A stretch of DNA of 64,000 nt, taken from positions 6,057,501 to 6,121,500 of the forward strand of contig CM007989.1 of NCBI GenBank assembly GCA_002189035.1. Direction: 5' to 3'. Both the position numbers and the translations under genes were made by a program. Under the pieces are notes generated by a model that did no database searches, had not been told where the DNA came from, and saw only the letters and a program-made list of their open reading frames with translations. Each line of letters starts with the position of its first letter. Positions within the stretch are counted from its first letter, which is position 1. The DNA is from Utricularia gibba (Eukaryota > Streptophyta > Magnoliopsida > Lamiales > Lentibulariaceae). Shown here one piece after another: positions 15,927 to 58,917 of this stretch.

Positions 15927-18900
15927 TCAAGTGGATTGGGCTGATTGGGCCCAATCCTTCCTACATCGGTATATCTCTACTCTCTCATTCACATTAGTCA
16001 AGTCTTCATAAGTTAGGGTTCTAGGCAAGAGAGCTCCATTAGATTGATCAACTAGCTTCAACATCCCCAATGATGGAGCAATCTGAAGATTTTCTGGAGA
16101 TGAATGAGGCCAATTTTCATAGTATATGTTGGTTCGATTATCCATCTTCAAGTTTTCATAAGCGATCACAGAGAGATTCTCAGAGATGGTAAATTTTCTT
16201 TGACCTTCTTCTTGTTGAGACATATTCTGAGAATATGAGCAAATGACGTCATTATCCAGAATGTCTTGCTCCAAATTTGCAGGCAGTAGTCCCAATTTTT
16301 CTCACAGTAGAGAGAATTGCTTGGGGTATAAGAGTTTTGTTAGAATATCTGTCAATTGTCGTTCCGATGAGATATGCATCAGCTTAATTCTCTTCTCCTT
16401 GATATAGTTCCTGACTACATAAAACTTGATTTGTATATGCTTAGTTCTTCCAAATAGCACTGGATTATTTCCCATCAAAATTGATGATTCATTGTCTAGG
16501 AATATTGTCACTGGCTTGTCTGTTCCGAATCCCAGATCCTTAAGCAACTCACATATCCATATTGTATGATTCGCCACAACTGCAGCAGCCATATACTCAG
16601 CCACGGATGAAGATTGAGCAACCATAGATTGTTTCTTGTTCCTCCGGGCGCAAAGACATCCACTTAACATAAATAGGTAATCACTTGTAGACTTCATATC
16701 TGCTTTATTACCTGCATAGTCACTATCGCAATATACTTGTAGACATGAAGTTTTACCTTTTGTGTAAATAAGTCCTAGAGTTGTAGTGTTGTGCAAATAC
16801 TTGAGAATTTGTTTCCCTGCTTCTAAATGAATAGGTTGGGGGCTGGCCATAAAATGGGATAATAGATTCACTATGAATGTGAAATCGGGCCTAGTTGTAG
16901 TGAGTCACATTAGTGAACCTATAAGCTTTTGATATATGTTTGCATCCCTCTTTTGTTCTTGCTCATAAAATTGTTTCCTTGCTTCAAGTGTAATACAAAC
17001 AGAAGATGGTCTCACTGTAGTCATTTCATATTGCTTCAGAAGATATAGGATATATTTTTGTTGGGAGACAACTATTTTCGAATCAGTTTGTTAGAGTTCT
17101 AGTCCCAAGAAGTAAGTCATGAGACCCAGATCTATAAGTTGGAAGGTCTGTTTCAGTTTCTCTTTTTCTCTGTTGACTAGCTTCAAGTAATTTCCTATTA
17201 TGAGTAGATCATCTATGTAAAGGGAGCTTGTTTCATTATGTTTCATTATGTAATGGAAGTAATTTCATTATGTATATCACTTAGAATGTATATTTTAGCA
17301 TTGTTTTCACTTCTATAGTAGCCTTGCTCTAGAAAATAATCATCGATCTTGTTGTACCATGCACAAGGAGCTTGTTTTAATCCATATAGCGCCTTGTGCA
17401 ATTTGTAGACTTTCTCTTCCTGTCCCTTGATAGTAAATCTCGATGGTTGTTCGACATATATCTCTTCATCTAGAAGACCATTTAGAAATGACGACTTTAT
17501 GTCTAGGTGGTAGATGGACCAATTTTTGCACGCTGCCAATGCTATAAGAAGTTTAATTGTATTGAATCTCGCAACTAGTGTAAAGGTGTCTTGATAGTTG
17601 ATTCCTTCACACTGTGTAAATCCCTTAATTATCAGTTTGACATTGAGTTTGTTTAGACTTCCATCTAGATTTAGTTTCGTTGTCAATATCCATTTTACTC
17701 TTACAGGTCTCTTAGTCTGGACTTTTTCTACTAAGGTCCAGGTTTTGTATTCTTTGATTATGTTCAACTCTTCTTTCATGGCTTTCCTCCATTCTGAGTT
17801 TGTTAGTGCATAGCTTAGGTTGATAGGTTCAGAATGCGTAAGCTGGCATTTGTCTTTATGGAAGGTGTATAGTAGTTTGAATCCTCTAATAGGTTGAATT
17901 TATTCTCGATGTTGAGGTTGAAGATGATATATTTATTTCATCCTCTTTCCCTATGTCTCCTAGGTCTTCTTTTGAAAGAGGTGTTTCATAGCCCAGATCC
18001 TCAAGATTTGACTCATATATCCTAACTGCTTGATTATCATTTGAATTTTATTCACCTATGCTTGATTCATTGCTGATATCTTCATTTGTCTCAGCCAAGA
18101 AATCGGAGTGTTGGAGGTTTTGGACAATTCGAGCTTCCTCTTCTACAGGTTCCTCTGCATTGATGCTCAAGTCATTTTGCTCATAGGTTTTAAGTGTTCT
18201 TAATTTTGACATGTCAATCACTACATCATTGACTATAATAAGAGAGTCGATATGTTCCACTACTTTATAATTTGAGGGCCTTTCTGCATGTCATGGTTCT
18301 CAATTGTCTAAGTTTTGTGTTGAGTCACTGAATTTACCACTGTTGTAGATGGTATTTTCATATTCATGAAGAGTAGATCTTGTAGTAGAGAGGTTAGTGG
18401 TGGTGTATTGAACATGGAACAGATCATATGAAAACGTTGATCTAGATGATGAGAGAGTAAGGCAATATGTTCTTTTAGAAACATTGGATTTTCTCCAATT
18501 TCAAGCTCTGTTTTTATCAAAGTTAACATGTCTGTTTAATACCATCTTTTCTTCAATTGGATCCCATAAGGATTCCTAATTGACTTTTCTTTTCCAGTTT
18601 GGTTCTTAGGGCATTTGGTATTAGCTAAAAATATATGCAGCCAAAAAATATAAGATGATCCATAACAAGTACTCTTTCTGTCCAAAGTTCATATGGAGTT
18701 TTAAGTTTTGACGTACCTCATGCAGGTAGTTTGTTTAGCAGATATACCGAACAATTCACAGCCTCTCTTCAAAAGATCTTAGGTACGTTTCTTTCAAACA
18801 AGAGACATTTGGTCATATCAAGTATTGTTCGATTTCGTCTTTCACTGACTCTATTATGTTGGGAGGTATAGGGGGTTGTAAATTGATGTGTGATGCCTTT

Positions 18901-20152
18901 CATCTCACAGCGTTTCTTCAGTCGTGAGGTATATATTCACCTCCATTATTGGATCTAATATATTTGACCTTGTGACCACACTAATTTTTAGTTGCACCCT
19001 TGAAGATTCTAAACTTGGAAACCATCTCAGCTTGGGATTTCATGAAGTAGACCCAAGAAAATTTGGTATAGTTATCAATGAATAACACAAAGTATTGATT
19101 TCCTCTTCTTGTTTTAGGCTTTATCAGTCTGCACACATCAGAGTGGATTATCTGCAACGAAGTAGAGGCGATCCAACAACTTCTTTGAAATGGTAAGCTG
19201 CTCATTTTTCCAAGTTTGCACACTTCAGAACACTCATTTACAATAGTCACATCATTCATACCGCTCATTAGATTTCCCTTATGCGATTTCAGCACACTTG
19301 CTTGGTTTTGATGTTCAAATCTACGGAGCCACAACAACACATTTTCCTTTGATAGGGATTCTTGAGTAATATTGACACTGATGCTTCCCTTTTTGTCCAG
19401 TCATTTGTTTGTGCACTTGTGCCACTACCTCTTTCTTCAAATTGCACACTCTCTCCATGTGTCCCTTTTGGTTGCAGAATGCACAAGTGCCTGATGGAAT
19501 CCCAACATTTTTCTAAAGTATGAGAGTTGGTGATTTTGCAATAGTAGCATGCAAGGAGATCATTTTGAGTGTTGGATGCTGTTGTGGTAGTCTTGAGAGC
19601 TGGAGGCTTGTAGATGGTTTTATTCTTGTGGTCAGTCTTGGCTTTTCCAAAAGATACTATGGTAGCAAAGGTCCTTTACTCATGTTTTACAGGTTTGATA
19701 TGAAGTTCAATTTGTTCCAAATTATCCAAAAGTTCCATATGATTGAATTTTCAAATGCACACAGTGGCCACCAAGGAGGCTATAATTGAGTTGTATGAGG
19801 CAGGCAAAGCATTGAGTGTGATGTCTTTGAGACATTTCTTATTAGATATTGCACCCACTAGTCTTAGTTTCCTATCTGCAACTTTGATAGTATTTATTAG
19901 ACAGTTAAAGGACTCACCTGGATTCAGTCTCAAAGTTACCAAGACTCTTCATTGATAGGCTATTTGAGCAGCCTTCGTTTTGGCATTGTCTAGGTGTGCC
20001 TTCTCTAGTTGCTCCCAAGCTTCCTTGGAATTATTGCATTTCAGAATTGCAATGAGAAATTTTTTTAAGAGCATAATTGCAAAAACTTTTATTTGTAGAA
20101 TTTGTGGGAGGAGACTTATACAACGAAGAAGATTACGAAATTCAAATATCAA
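15927..20152 (-). mobile_element. Degenerate Ty1/copia retrotransposon
   Basis: Copia domain order can be followed from high to low coordinates on the minus strand, broken by stops and frameshifts. Gag helices lie at 20152-19750 (KEAWEQLEKAHLDNAKTKA; RLNPGESF). Gag-tail and protease sequence follows around 19290-19490. Integrase is at 19340-18540 with IHSDVCRLIKPKTRRGNQYF and FVLFIDNYTKFSWVYF. Reverse transcriptase is at 17779-17190 with VKWILTTKLNLDGS, YHLDIKSSFLNG, ALYGLKQAPCAWY and a YIDDLLII box near 17200. RNase H is at 16871-16302 with CDSDYAG, SSVAEYMAA and RTKHIQIKFYVVR. An ORF at 16295-15927 overlaps the RNase H end and runs into the 3' repeats. The 5' end is cut off where plus-strand gypsy sequence begins near 20.08 kb. 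It is not intact and no clear LTR pair was found. Confidence 0.9.
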
Positions 20153-31084: not shown

Positions 31085-31109
31085 TGTACCCGCATCTAGT
31101 TCTGCATTT

Positions 31110-31187
31110 TAAATTTAAAAAATCTAGGATCGGCCACTAATGAACTTCATATACTCAAATTTAGAAAACTATCCACTTTCTTATTTG

Positions 31188-31270
<83 letters not shown>

Positions 31271-31480
31271 AATATCATAATTTATGTTTTTTCATATACA
31301 ATAATGCTTATCAGAAAAATAAATTTCGCATTATTTTTTTTATAATACTTATAGCAATTTTTTTGTTTTTATGAACTCTATATTAAAATTATTAAAAAAA
31401 ATTAATAGAGTATAAAAAACGGATAGGCTATATTATTGAAAAATAATAATATATTACTTATGTAAAATGAGTATTTAAAA
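31110..31480 (+). repeat. Left terminal inverted repeat of the MULE
   Basis: Pairs with 37920-38260 in reverse complement, with an (AT)n expansion inserted at 31194-31266 that the right arm has only in short form (tatacatatatac). Confidence 0.75.
31194..31266. repeat. (AT)n microsatellite, about 73 bases
   Basis: Uninterrupted TA dinucleotides inside the left arm of the MULE. The homologous place in the right arm holds only a few alternating bases, so the expansion occurred after insertion of the element. Confidence 0.95.
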
Positions 31481-33379
31481 ATATTTTTCAATTTTTGGGA
31501 TAATTCATATTTTTTAAATGATAATGATTATTGAAATTAATATTAAACAATAATATCATATCATTTAACAAAATATAAAAACAATTTATGCTATGTGAAT
31601 TAACTTAGATGAAATTTTAAATAACACTTATTTTGGATTTTCAAAATTTTTTTTATTATAAATCTTCATCCCTTACAATCGATTTTATTAATTTGAAAGC
31701 ATTAATTCATTTTTTGTAAATTTTATTATTAAATACTCTATTTACTGAAATTTCGAAAATTCATATTTCAAATATTTTTAGTATTCAAATATCTCCAATA
31801 AAACTAAAAATACCATATATGTGAATGATACATATTCATTTGAAATGTATCATTATTAAAATGCCATATAGTAATTGCAATGCTTTGATTACGATAATTA
31901 TGTAAATAATATTTTAAAATCAATAAATTAATGTAATTACTTAATTCTACAAAAGTCATTTTTTAAAATATCATGAAATTTAAAAATACTAAAATATATA
32001 TTTTAAAAGTATTTAAATAAAATATTTAATATTTTCATTTATGGAAAATAAATTATTCTATTAAAAAATGAGAAAATTATTTAAATAAAATTATGAAAAC
32101 TATACAATTAATGTTACTTATTATTCAAATAAATTTAATTAAATCATTTTATTGAAATGATAAATATGTGATATATTTTAGAAAGATAGGTATTCAAACG
32201 ATATACATGATTTGAGTTGAATGTATATTTTTCAAGAATCTATATCTTTATTTTAAATTTGTATTATATATTTTTTATTTTAAATTCATAATATCCAATA
32301 CAGAATCCTAAAATTGTTATTTGAATTGAATGTATCTTTTATTTATTTTAAATTTTTATTATATATCATTCAATCTTTAAATATTATTTAGATAGAATGC
32401 ATATTTTTTTTATTTTTTATTTGCTTTACGCATGATTTTTTTTCAAATGGTATTAGAGTTCAATTTATCTTTCATAGATTGAATAAAATAAGAAAATAAT
32501 TTTCAATTTAAAAGTATATATAATAAAACTATAATTTTCAAATATAATTAAGCACATTTATGTATAGATTACATTCAAATATATAAGAAAACTTCTGATA
32601 TATATGTATATATTGTTTAACTATTTTAATATAAAATTCATTGAAATTTAGATTTTAATAAATAGTTTTTAATTTTTAATTATTTTAATATTATAATCCT
32701 AATTGACTTATGAAATCGTTAATGTTGTTGCTATTTTCTTTATATATCTATACTATTTTTAATCTTTTTTTAAATAATCATATATGATTATTTAACCAAT
32801 ATTCATTGCATAGGCTTGTACAAAAAAAAATGCGATTTTAGTGCAATTCAAAGTTGTATATTGTTTTTTTCCATAAAAAATTATTCTAGTTCATCATTTA
32901 TAATAATAAAAGATATATTTTTACTAAGATATAAAAAATTTCTCATTCATAATTATAGAAAAGAAAAGCGAAAAGAAAGAAAATGTTCATACGTGAATAG
33001 AAATATATTGTTCAAAAAAAATATAAATATGTTACAAACCAAATAATGATGATGATTATTAGTGTCAACAGGTTTTACAATAAAAAAATAGAAAACATAT
33101 CAAAATAACTAGTGATAACATGAAAATTAGAAATGACAATGAAATTTATGCATTTGTGAAAAAAATAACATTCATCTTAGAGTAATTCTTAAACTCGCAC
33201 CAACTTTTACCCTTTAAAATATATATATATATATATTTAACCATCTTCATCAACTGCATTATCTTTAAATTTATCATAAATACACAATATAATATATATA
33301 CAATTATAAATCTATAAATTTAAATTAAATTTATAATGTTAAAATGGGAGATTGAAAAATTTGTCAACTTTGACCACGT

Positions 33380-33850
33380 GATGTCATATTTATAGTTTAA
33401 GCCAAACCATGAAAATGTTTGCTCCTGTTGTGTGTGAGATAGTTGGATCTAATATGTCGAAGGTAAAATCGATGGTATTCATATAACGGCTGAAAGTTAA
33501 GAATCCTATCTAAGATGACTAATAATCGAAAGTCTCTATCACTAGTTAAGTTAATCTGATAGCAACCATGAATAATATGAACTTATAACAACTTTAAAAA
33601 CCATGTACATGTAGTACTTAGCTCTTCATCAATTAAAACATAAGCTAATGGGAGAGCATGTCTACCGACATCTATGACAACGGTAATCAATAGTTTGTAT
33701 ATATATTAGCCATACAAATATATCTCTTCGACATGTATGATTGGACAATAATTTTTATATACAACAATACATGATGCAAATATTAAGAACACATGGTATA
33801 GAATTGGCCCTCCCCTATTATCACTCATATGGGTTCACATAAGTATTTCA
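33380..33850 (-). pseudogene. MULE transposase core, decayed
   Basis: Minus-strand translation, with one stop and frame slips, gives FLIFASCIVVYKNYCPIIHV, then EEIYLYG, YKLLITVVIDVGR, ALPLAYVLIDEELSTTCTW, then SDRDF and YEYHRFYLRHIRSNY. This is the plant MuDR/MULE core: FWAFxACIxGFxxCRPVIxxDGTHLYGKYKGxLLxAxGxDxN, FPLAFAxVExE, ISDRHxG and AYHxYCxRHIxxN. The first catalytic Asp of the DGT motif reads Glu-Glu, and the D after IS is kept in SDRD. Inactive. Outside the core, an ORF at 36293-36505 might be an N-terminal piece, but this is weak. Confidence 0.8.
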
Positions 33851-36800
33851 TAAAAAAATATTTCTTTTTACACAAAGAGATTCTTGTCGAGGAATAACAT
33901 ACGTCATATGTTGATGAAATCATAGATGCCTCATATAAATCCAATGAAGATGGAGGAAATAAGAACATCAATCCTCCCCTCATTTCAATTTGGTCACTCA
34001 CAAGATCAAAAGCAAAAAAGCACCAAAAACTTTTTTTAAGGATTATGACTTAATTAGGAAACTTATGAAACTTGTAGCATTGAGTTTACTAGTATTACTT
34101 TTAGTTAAACTAACTTATTTTTCTATCTATATAAGAAGGTCTTTACTATTGTTTAGTAATAACTTTGATTGTAATGATTTTTTAGAATAATACTTCTTTT
34201 TGGAGTTTTTATAGAACTTTAGACTTATTAAGTCTTGCTTGTAGTGTCTAGTATATGTTTTATCACTTTTATTTCATTCCTTGTTTTTCTGAGTATGGTA
34301 TCATTTAACAATTTGGGTTTCAAGAATTTTCAATACTTGAGGGCTAACTTTTCTTTTCTTGAAGTATTGCTTCTTTTGAACCCAAAATTAGGTTTGCCAA
34401 TCAATTTTTGTTTGGATTGTCGTATCATATGCCATATACGTCATTTTTTATATTACCATTATAGAAAACTCATATAGTTACAACATATTTACGTACTAAA
34501 CTCTTACAAATATGTAGAACTCAAAATAACTTATGATAAAGATTTGTGATAGAAAATCTTTAAAAAAAATATAGATAAAGTGTTTGGTTTTATAAACTTG
34601 AATTAACATAAATGACAAAAATAGCGTGAATTAATTTAAAATAATAATGAATTGACTCAAAATAGTATTGTATTTGCTTTTAGTCACATTTTTAATTTGA
34701 AAATTTAATAAAAGAATAAATTTAAAATGTAACATATGAATAAAATAGAATTATATTCGTTTTTATATATCAATAAATTAGAATTTTATTTTCTTAAAAA
34801 TCAAAATTTAATAAGTTATCTATGTTTTTGAATTATTTATAATATAATTATTATTTATAATATCCAATGAGATTCTGAATTTAGAAAGTAGTATAATCAT
34901 AATAATGATATTGGAAATAAATTTGTTTGTGTTAATTTTTATAAAAAAATGAAATATATTGACATGTTGGTATATTTCATTTTTTTGGTATTTATTTTTA
35001 AAAGAAATATTAATGATAGTTATTTTGCAAAAGATTTTAAAAGTATAAATATATTTCAAATTAAGATGAAGAGTGATATGTATTTTTCAAATCTGTTACT
35101 GAGTAATTTTCTAGGAATATTTTTTGGAAAATTGGGAATATTTTTGGGAAATTGGGAATATTTTTAAGAAGTGACAAATTAGTAGTAACTATCTTTTATC
35201 TCAACTAGGTTTTTCACTGTATTTGAATTTTTATTTAAACCTTCTTTCTTCAACAATAGATCGCAACTCAGAAAATCAGTAGCACATACCTCCCCTCTCA
35301 ATTCGTTGCACTTTTACCCTCTTTTGGGGAACGAAGTGATACAACTTTGGGTTCTCTATTTTTAACTTGTTTTATTTATAATAGCCTAGTCAATCAAATG
35401 TATCCAAGCGACACCATTATGTGCATGCCATGTGTTATTTTCCATGCGCACCACATGTCTACTACGTGTGCATCATGAGTCCTGTCGCATGTGTGCCACT
35501 TGTATATCAATCATGAATGCCACATGTCACATGCAAAATAACGATGAGATGTAGACGGGAATATATATATATAGTAGAATGTAATGTTCTTTTATTGATT
35601 CTTGAGTTTTACAAAAGTGACTAGGAGAAGTTGGAAGGAAAGGTTATAGTACATTCAATAAACGAAGCTAGAGAGTTGATTTGTGGTCTAAGGTGTTAAG
35701 TTAAGTGGCATGATTGCTTTTGAGGCTTTACTTATCTTTGAATGTGATTGCGTCTATGATCAAAACTTTTTTATGTTACATAAAAGTTATAACAAGGTAG
35801 TGGGTTATTTCAATTAAGATGAATTGTTTATTAATAATGTGTTATTGATATTACAAGGCTCATTAAAGTCATTCTAAATTATTGTTAATTCCTGTAAAAA
35901 TATCTTCTTGAATAATTTGTCAATAACTTTTATGTTGTTAGATATGATGACATAAGATATTTTCTACTCAAATATCCATTGACTTTGTCTATGATATCCA
36001 AAGTTCATTGAAATATTAGTGTCAATTAAACATTAAAAAAATAAATGATGCAAGTAATGCTAGTTTTTAGAAATATTAATAATATATAAATTACAAGATA
36101 TCCTCTATAAAATTATCAAATTGGAACATAAAAGTGTTTACGATATCAATTTATGAATTCTTTAATAAAAGTTATTAAATATGTTATATATTTAAAAATA
36201 ATAAATTTGTAAGGAATTAATAATATAATATATATTCATTTCAAATCTTACAAAATCTACAATATACACTATTGGTTTTGGGGTCAATTGGGTCAACGTA
36301 ACATCATCATAATCAAGGATTGACAAATGAATAATAAGATTTGTAAATATAACTTCCAACGAAAATGTTTGGTATAAATAATCATATCATTAGTATCAAT
36401 ACGTTCTAGTAATGCATTGATAATCTTCTCATTGCTTATTTTGTCGAACATTTTGTATTCTTTCGGAACACAAAAACGTATTTTGAACTTAAAAGAAGTA
36501 TCCATTGATTTATTTATTCAAAGAACTATAAATGAAAAAAATGTTCAATACAATCTAAATTATAAGTGAATTATATATTTAATTGAATTATATTTTAGAA
36601 AAATATACTTGAAATAATTTATTTTTTTTGTTTTTGTGAAGCCAATTTTGAAATCACACTATCATTATTAATCAAATCTACAAATTTTGTTTTCAATTAT
36701 CACATCCTTTGAATTTATATTTTGCACCTCGTAAATATTTTTTTTCAATTAATTACACTTAATTAAAACCATAATAATCACTGTAATTGAATTATCATAT

Positions 36801-37919
36801 TATAATCTTATTGTTTTCCATGACGAATAACTATAACCAATGTGAAGTCCAGTTATATTTAACATGATTCATTTTGCTTAAAAACTAAATATGATGTTTT
36901 TTTTATTTTAAAACCATTAAATTTAGATGGCATGTTTTTCTATATTATTAAATATGTAATAATAATAATAATAATATAGAGTGAATATTTATTATACTTT
37001 CATTAATCTTAGTTATAATTTTTTGTATTATATATTTTATATGTTATATTCCATTTTATGAAATATTAAGATTTATTTCCAATAATTTTATCATATCTTT
37101 AAAAATAAGATTTGTTTGATTATCATGGATTTCAATTTATAAATTTTATTATTGTTTGTTCATATTGCATCATTGATGGATGACTTAAAGCAATCACCAT
37201 ACAACGATTGTATTTACAACACAATATTTTTTTTCGTATGAAAATCTACAATTTTTTATTTTATAAATATCATGGCTTTTGAATTTGTTATATTCAAAGT
37301 ATTTTTCAGGGACAATATATTCAATTATAAAAGTTACATTTCTTATGATAAACTTCATTTATGAATCATTCAATTTCACATCGATGCTATATTAGATGAT
37401 CTACAATCTGAGTTATATGAGATAATTAAAATTTAGACTCTTTTTATGATTTAAAATTTTTAGTGTAATATTACAATTATGAAAACAATGAAATGCATTA
37501 TATGTAACTATTATTCCAAATGAACTTACTCTTTTTCCACAACTTAGTCATATCACTCTTCTATTAGAATTATACTTGATACTAATCATTTTACTACAAG
37601 TTAATTGGAGTTTTGATTATGATTATGGATAAATATGGATATATCTCATATTTATTGTTTTAATGAAATGGTTCAATCAAATGAAATTTAAATAATAATT
37701 AATAATGATTACATGTTTTTTATAATTTTATTTAATTATTTTGTCAATTAATAAAATAATTTATTTTTGATAAATTGAAGTATTAAATACTCTACTTAAA
37801 CAGTTTTTAAAATATTTTTTTTTGAGGATTTTTAAATTTAATGATATTTCAAGTAAATGTAAATACCATTTGTAAAATTTAGTAGTTGCGGTAATGTATC
37901 AATTTTAAAATATTATTTA

Positions 37920-38260
37920 TATAATATTCAAAGTATTATTTCTAAATATTTATTTTAGTTAAGTAATATATTATTATTTTTAATAATAAAAATCCATCTT
38001 TTTTATAATGAATAATTTTTATTTAATAATTTTAATATTATAAATATAGAGTTCATATCATAAAAACAAAACCAATTTCTGTAAATATTATAAAAAAGTA
38101 ATGCAGAATAGATTTGTATGATAAATGTTATTGTATATTAAAAAAATACAAATTGTAATATTTATAATATAATATATACATATATACAAGAAGTTGGATA
38201 ATTTTCTAAATTTGAATACACACAATTCACCCAATGGATTATTTTTTAAAGGATATTTTT
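37920..38260 (-). repeat. Right terminal inverted repeat of the MULE
   Basis: Reverse complement of the left arm over at least 300 bases, with moderate divergence. Its outer part (38161-38289) is also homologous to the arms of the MITE at 12.9-13.4 kb. Confidence 0.75.
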
Positions 38261-38289
38261 TACAATGGTTAGTTTTCTAAATGACTCCC

Positions 38290-57338: not shown

Positions 57339-58380
57339 ATTTTGTGGAATAAATAATCCTATAAAATATCTAATTGCTAGTAGTTGTCTTTTGGATTACG
57401 TATGGTGTGTTTAAAATGAAAGAGGGGGGGATTTTTAAAATCTCATAATTTTGTGGAAAATTGGAAATAAAGCAATATGGAGGGTGCGAGAGAAAAAGTG
57501 TTTTTACTAACAAGTAGCTCAGCATCCATGGAGATTACGCTTACACAAAGAAGGGGCAAGAAATCCAGCTTGGATTCTTGGTAAAGTCGTAAAGCTTGCT
57601 GTACTCCTCAACGCAATTGCATTTAATTGTACTAATCTCTGCGCTATTTATCCCGAAGTTACGCGCACCTTTTTTACTGCATTTTTCACCGGACGGACTC
57701 CACAGGTATTTGGGTTCCTCCGTCGACGCTGCTTTGCTTTTTACACAAGGTAACTTCTGCGCTTCCGTTTTGATCAGGAATTGAATTTTTTTGATGGGTT
57801 TTCTCAGGTTCCCTGTTTGCGATTCTGGGAAGTTTTCGTTTTGAGCAAAAACAACATAAAAAAAATATCCGTGCTTTTCTTGAATCTTTTACGCGTGAAA
57901 ACCACGCCAAAGGGAATATGTTTATGGTGTCTGAATGCGTTGAAATCCAGATCCATGGCTCTTGTGTGTGCGCTTATGTATGTTTCCTGCGAATCGAATC
58001 AATGAGCTGCAACATCTTTTTGTTTCTCTGTAGACGCCCTTGTTAAATGTAACGCAAACCTGTTCATTTGATAGACGGTTCATCTGTCTTTCCTTGGCTA
58101 AAATGGCACTTTTTGCTCTATCAAAATCAAGTTTTTAGGCTCAGTGAATGAATCTCTGAATTGAAGTAAATTGCGCATGGATATATATTAATTGATGGGA
58201 TTGTTCTATGGTCGTATATATTTTTACTGAACATCATGCAATCTTCTGGTAAAGAGTCGAAGGCGTAAAATTGTCAGAAGAAGCGCATGATACCAAAACC
58301 TGATCTTTTCTGAGTACTTACCTGTATTTTGACTGATTCATATATCTGCTTTCTGCAGGAGAATCTTAGGCACTGCGCTA
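57339..58380 (+). promoter_or_regulatory. Upstream region and probable leader intron of the MADS-box gene
   Basis: GC-balanced from about 57470. A pyrimidine-rich acceptor ending ctttctgcag at 58359, 21 bases before the MADS start codon, suggests an intron in the 5' leader. A possible first leader exon lies near 57540-57760; donor not fixed. No coding gene seen. Confidence 0.45.
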
Positions 58381-58917
58381 ATGACTCGATCGAGGATAAA
58401 GTACGAGCTGATTCCAAACGAGCGTACACGCAGAGAAACATTCAAGAAAAGGAAGAGAGGCTTGTTCAAGAAGCTAAATGAACTACAAGTGCTCTGCAAC
58501 GTTGATGTCTGTGGTATAGTTATGAACGATAATGGGACGCGGCCAGAAGTTTTTCCATCTCTCCACGATGCCTCTCGTGTGATCCAGCGGTTTAACAACT
58601 TGCCCCCTTCCACGAAGGGGACGAATATGGTGGATCAGCTTCGATATCTCCGGATCAATCTGAATAGGGTCTCCACAAATGTAGACAAGGAGAGCAGGAA
58701 GGTCAAGTCTTTAGAGAATGAAGTTGTCTTAGCAGAGTGTCTGAAAAATGAAGAAGGTGTCAAGGTGGAAACCTCAGAGCGTCTGCACGAGATGCTTCGT
58801 TTGTTGGAGAGGAAGATTGCAATGGTTGATCATAGAATTGCTGATATAGAGAAGAGTGAGGCTTATCACGGAAAAGGGAAGAAGCCACTTGAAGATCCAG
58901 GAAAATGTAATCATTAG
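58381..58917 (+). CDS. Type I (Mgamma) MADS-box protein, AGL80-like
   Basis: A single-exon 178-aa protein, as usual for type I MADS genes. The MADS domain occupies residues 1-60: MTRSRIKYELIPNERTRRET, FKKRKRGLFKKLNELQVLCN, VDVCGIVMND. It is followed by RPEVFPSLHDASRVIQRFNN, the counterpart of the QPEVWPS segment typical of the Mgamma clade. There is no K-box; the C-terminal part is helical and charged (KSLENEVVLAECL, ERLHEMLRLLERKIAMVDH). Nuclear DNA-binding protein; Mgamma members act mainly in female gametophyte and endosperm. It is shorter than AGL80 but has its own stop and no lesion. The position of the ATG directly at the MADS motif settles the start. Confidence 0.92.
   Translation: MTRSRIKYELIPNERTRRETFKKRKRGLFKKLNELQVLCNVDVCGIVMNDNGTRPEVFPSLHDASRVIQRFNNLPPSTKGTNMVDQLRYLRINLNRVSTNVDKESRKVKSLENEVVLAECLKNEEGVKVETSERLHEMLRLLERKIAMVDHRIADIEKSEAYHGKGKKPLEDPGKCNH

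Follow-up and report, generated by a model that had tools for sequence, protein, structure and literature searches.

An old long-TIR Mutator-like element in Utricularia gibba that has very probably lost its own transposase gene and contains a fragment of a second MULE family

Introduction

Maize MuDR is a two-gene autonomous Mutator element with terminal inverted repeats (TIRs) of ~215 bp, in which mudrB is oriented convergently with mudrA. Long-TIR coding Mutator-like elements (MULEs) of plants combine long TIRs and target-site duplications (TSDs) of 9-10 bp with a gene for a MuDR-type DNA-binding domain and a MULE transposase; their features further include non-autonomous derivatives formed by deletion, as well as insertions that are nested or foreign. 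Pack-MULEs, in turn, carry fragments of host genes between MULE TIRs.

Here we describe a 7.1-kb stretch within 64,000 nucleotides of Utricularia gibba contig CM007989.1 (hereafter the window), which very probably represents a copy, both old and immobile, of a MULE family with long TIRs and two genes, termed family A, whose own transposase gene was deleted and into which a fragment of another MULE family, family B, was placed separately. Family A resembles the plant long-TIR coding MULEs in all of the features listed above, its TSDs being seen in sister copies. The window copy differs from them in that it has no recognisable TSD, retains hardly any of its own transposase and contains the fragment of another MULE family. 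Like MuDR, family A has a transposase gene and a second gene between long TIRs; unlike in MuDR, the two genes are divergent, the TIRs measure about 1.0-1.3 kb and the second gene contains a PF04195 domain, to which mudrB is, as far as we are aware, unrelated. The foreign fragment between MULE TIRs recalls Pack-MULEs, yet it is derived from a transposon and not from a host gene, it occurs in this one copy among the family A copies found, and its capture during transposition is putative. The window element lies within known plant transposon biology; as a genomic fossil, it has little significance beyond this locus.

Results and discussion

In a search of the host assembly with the right arm of the window element as query, the 40 candidates that were scored yielded 62 matches, of which many form plus/minus pairs. 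Family A is thus a long-TIR MULE family, and this genome contains tens of relatives of the window element. The extracted copies with paired TIRs, the arms of which were verified, range from 4.7 to 10.6 kb. In the less decayed and largest copies the TIRs of about 1.0-1.3 kb start with GAGTCATTTT, and the outer TIR end of the family is GAGTCATTTTGAAAAC. Near-perfect TSDs of 9-10 bp accompany paired TIRs in L034 (GTAGGAATGG/GTAGTAATGG), C414 (ATCATGTGAA/ATCATGTTAA) and L033 (CAAGCGTAT/CAAGCATAT), and the related small element L044 is flanked on both sides by a perfect 10-bp TSD, ACTTTTTGCC. Because its relatives combine TIRs of this length with such TSDs, we classify the 7-kb element as Mutator-like. 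An earlier note on this DNA had proposed a Mutator-like transposon bounded by long inverted ends, a reading supported by the arms, the TSDs of sister copies and the MULE transposase genes inside them. As long TIRs are typical for plant MULEs (PMC3310237), those found here are not unusual in themselves.

Small relatives of the family A TIRs also occur (L041-L046, about 500-700 bp); they are non-autonomous, and some of them (L043-L046) are nearly complete palindromes. Furthermore, near-identical family A arrays are present on two contigs (L040 on C506 and C451:3.295-3.308 Mb), which may reflect either duplication in the assembly or a segmental duplication.

The longer family A copies, L034, C414 and C451, contain a MULE transposase gene and a divergently oriented second gene with PF04195. 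Between the TIRs of C451, PF03108 (DBD_Tnp_Mut) was detected with 31.6 bits (cut-off 25) and PF10551 (MULE) with 52.7 bits (cut-off 27.6), while PF04195 in the second gene reached 30.8 bits (cut-off 26.2); C414 and L034 have genes homologous to the C451 transposase. Relics of both genes can be recognised by alignment in the window. The second gene is represented at 35813-36517 on the minus strand, where its first exon (36505-36314) and the C451 ORF with PF04195 share 58% identity. The 5' end of the family's own transposase gene lies on the plus strand at 37138-37621, where positions 37200-37544 are 53% identical to C451 and contain several stops. Since transposase homology stops at about 37621 and the right TIR starts at 37638, the remaining part of the gene has been deleted. 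Subterminal and internal non-coding family A sequence at 32177-33369 (plus strand) is collinear with L040, C451, C414 and L034.

The element had been described in the earlier note as near-complete, which is wrong because the family A transposase survives as this plus-strand 5' end alone; the window copy encodes the N-terminal part only, interrupted by stops, and is not autonomous. When intact, the element would have been moved through the action of a family A transposase at the long TIRs, making a 9-10-bp TSD. An internal deletion with its limits at about 37.62 kb and at the right TIR removed the plus-strand transposase and left a non-autonomous element, for which mobilisation in trans may be assumed. 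There is no sign of current activity of the window copy.

At 33370-35812, a foreign block of 2.44 kb replaces ~40 bp of family A sequence. In the alignment with L040, C451, C414 and L034, family A sequence extends to about 33370 and resumes at about 35812, and no transposon end coincides with either edge of the block. Our first map had indicated a loss of ~440 bp at this site, which was overturned by a more sensitive alignment. The block begins with a fragment of the catalytic-domain region of a MULE transposase (33370-33826, minus strand, with stops), which we assign to family B, and contains further family B sequence at 34726-34886. Positions 33912-34427 (plus strand) are occupied by a solo Ty3/gypsy LTR with the TSD TATGT/TATGC; the full element of this gypsy family, L055, has 570-bp LTRs. 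The 3' part of an unrelated LTR of ~1.42 kb (TGTCACGACCC...TCACA), truncated on both sides, follows at 35344-35812 on the minus strand, and solo copies of this LTR elsewhere have 5-bp TSDs, e.g. AGAAG at L026 and CTTTG at L029. Positions 33650-35749 are common to the block and L047 (C1:5.687 Mb, same contig) at 83% identity. In L047 the two LTRs occupy identical sites, the TSD of the solo LTR being shared, and both insertions are therefore older than the split between the block and L047. Separately from the deletion, a 2.44-kb family B fragment that already carried the two LTR insertions would have been swapped in for about 40 bp.

As to how the block arrived, we consider it the likelier course that it was acquired as a fragment without family B ends, either as repair filler or by a Pack-MULE-like capture. 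This would be in line with the near-clean exchange of ~40 bp for a 2.44-kb piece whose edges have no transposon termini. Moreover, K2P is 0.16 between the block and L047 and 0.19-0.215 between the arms, which weakly suggests that the block arrived when family A was already resident, although by a rough estimate this difference is smaller than two standard errors. The block was found in no second family A copy; it thus never amplified, and its capture during transposition is unproven. Less probable is the nesting of a complete family B element into family A, followed by deletion of both family B ends. Among coding MULEs, nested insertions are frequent (36-41% in maize and rice; PMC3903597), and L047 contains family B sequence in which both LTRs are likewise present. 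However, the two edges of the block fall within the MULE core and within an LTR, respectively, but only ~40 bp of family A are gone, and two deletions would be needed, each ending near a junction with family A. On balance, we favour the arrival as a fragment over a trimmed full nested element.

The transposase core at 33370-33826 had been noticed in the earlier note and read as the dead MuDR-type transposase of the element itself. A degraded minus-strand fragment of the MULE type with in-frame stops is indeed present; tblastn comparison with MULE proteins encoded in this genome gave E-values of 1e-6 to 1e-27 (search space comprising the compared sequences only). Its similarity points to family B (L031/L050 and L051; 76% DNA identity and 64% protein identity over 74 residues) and not to family A (37% protein identity to C451 over 79 residues). 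The family B transposase is different from that of family A, with about 32% identity between the two, and the family B loci L050 and L051 showed no detectable long TIRs, nor did the family A TIR search return any match near them. Families A and B are related and have a subterminal motif in common, and the assignment of the core to family B accordingly rests on the contrast in identity together with position, and not on a full tree. When the window ORFs were scanned with Pfam, no transposase domain exceeded its cut-off, as the remains are too decayed; PF10551 misses the core, and the window is also absent from the matches of a genome-wide PF10551 scan.

That the long TIRs and the minus-strand core belong to one and the same MULE is highly improbable. 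While both are of the MULE type and the arms enclose the core, the family A transposase is encoded on the plus strand at another position, where its 5' end persists at 37.2-37.54 kb, the identity of the core is far higher to family B than to family A, and four family A copies (L040, C451, C414 and L034) lack the block. We reject this reading on the basis of strand, position and identity. The foreign block, in our interpretation, would have supplied a misleading transposase core. This calls for caution, since a transposase core between long inverted repeats may not belong to them, and annotation pipelines that pair such a core with the repeats would build chimeric families.

The shared subterminal motif is tandemly repeated in family B (L050:2404-2768; L051:2683-3049) and also occurs in family A copies and at 32248-32422 of the window. 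This suggests that the two families share ancestry or have exchanged end regions.

The left arm of the window element is located at 31137-32176 (plus strand) and the right arm at 37638-38287 (minus strand). The two inverted stretches claimed earlier to span at least 300 bases are real and longer than stated: gapped local alignment of the arms gave a score of 248, whereas 100 dinucleotide shuffles averaged 40 and did not exceed 52, and control placements scored 43-82. Six ungapped blocks are collinear from 31141 to 32130 versus 38229 to 37686, with 82-83% identity over aligned columns, and the divergence of the arms (K2P as given above) indicates that the window copy is old. The low GC content of the element (16-27%) and a (TA)n microsatellite expansion within the left TIR (31190-31280) might suggest that the inverted similarity stems from AT-rich background alone, a reading with a vanishingly small probability that is refuted by the shuffles and by the homologous, TSD-flanked paired TIRs at other loci.

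The arms differ by a segment of about 414 bp (31484-31896), which is present in the left arm and missing in the right one. In most other genomic copies the two matching halves of the query are spaced by a similar length, and we conclude that the right arm has lost this segment. Of the limits proposed earlier for the element, 31085 and 38289, both were approximate. On the right, the end sequence common to family A places the terminus of the window element, with the outer end GAGTCATTTAGAAAAC, at 38287. On the left, the terminus is at or outside 31137, and the outermost ~45 bp are decayed or lost and could not be aligned. A TSD of the window copy, as sought following the earlier note, was not recognisable at the two flanks; the best match of the right flank CCTAACCTGC near the left end has 3/9 mismatches, and given the decayed left terminus the loss of the TSD is to be expected.

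The second gene of family A, with PF04195, was observed at L038:5998-7248, L036:2889-3944 and L035:1879-3128, with its counterpart in the window at 36314-36505. Genome-wide, 18 out of 100 PF04195 ORFs have a family-A-like MULE match at a distance of up to 6 kb, 12 of them in divergent and none in convergent orientation, compared to 2-8 with mixed orientation in shifted controls. The Pfam name of PF04195, 'putative gypsy type transposon', may be misleading. A literature search for PF04195 together with MULE or Mutator found no paper joining the two, and recognition of the gene as a divergent partner of MULE transposases could help to mend this label. With somewhat less than even confidence, we offer the combined proposal that a piece of a rival MULE transposase and LTR fragments served as filler DNA in forming a chimeric element and that the PF04195 gene is a divergent accessory gene of long-TIR MULEs.

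The surroundings of the element, portrayed in the earlier note as an AT-rich desert, are no gene desert. The window contains NAC, CBS-domain, DUF538 and MADS-type genes as well as a Copia element. The Copia remains are located at 16302-19400 on the minus strand, with an RVT_2 domain (162 bits) at 17246-17899. A 194-codon ORF with a MADS-type (SRF-TF) domain at 58333-58917 on the plus strand is probably a type-I MADS gene.
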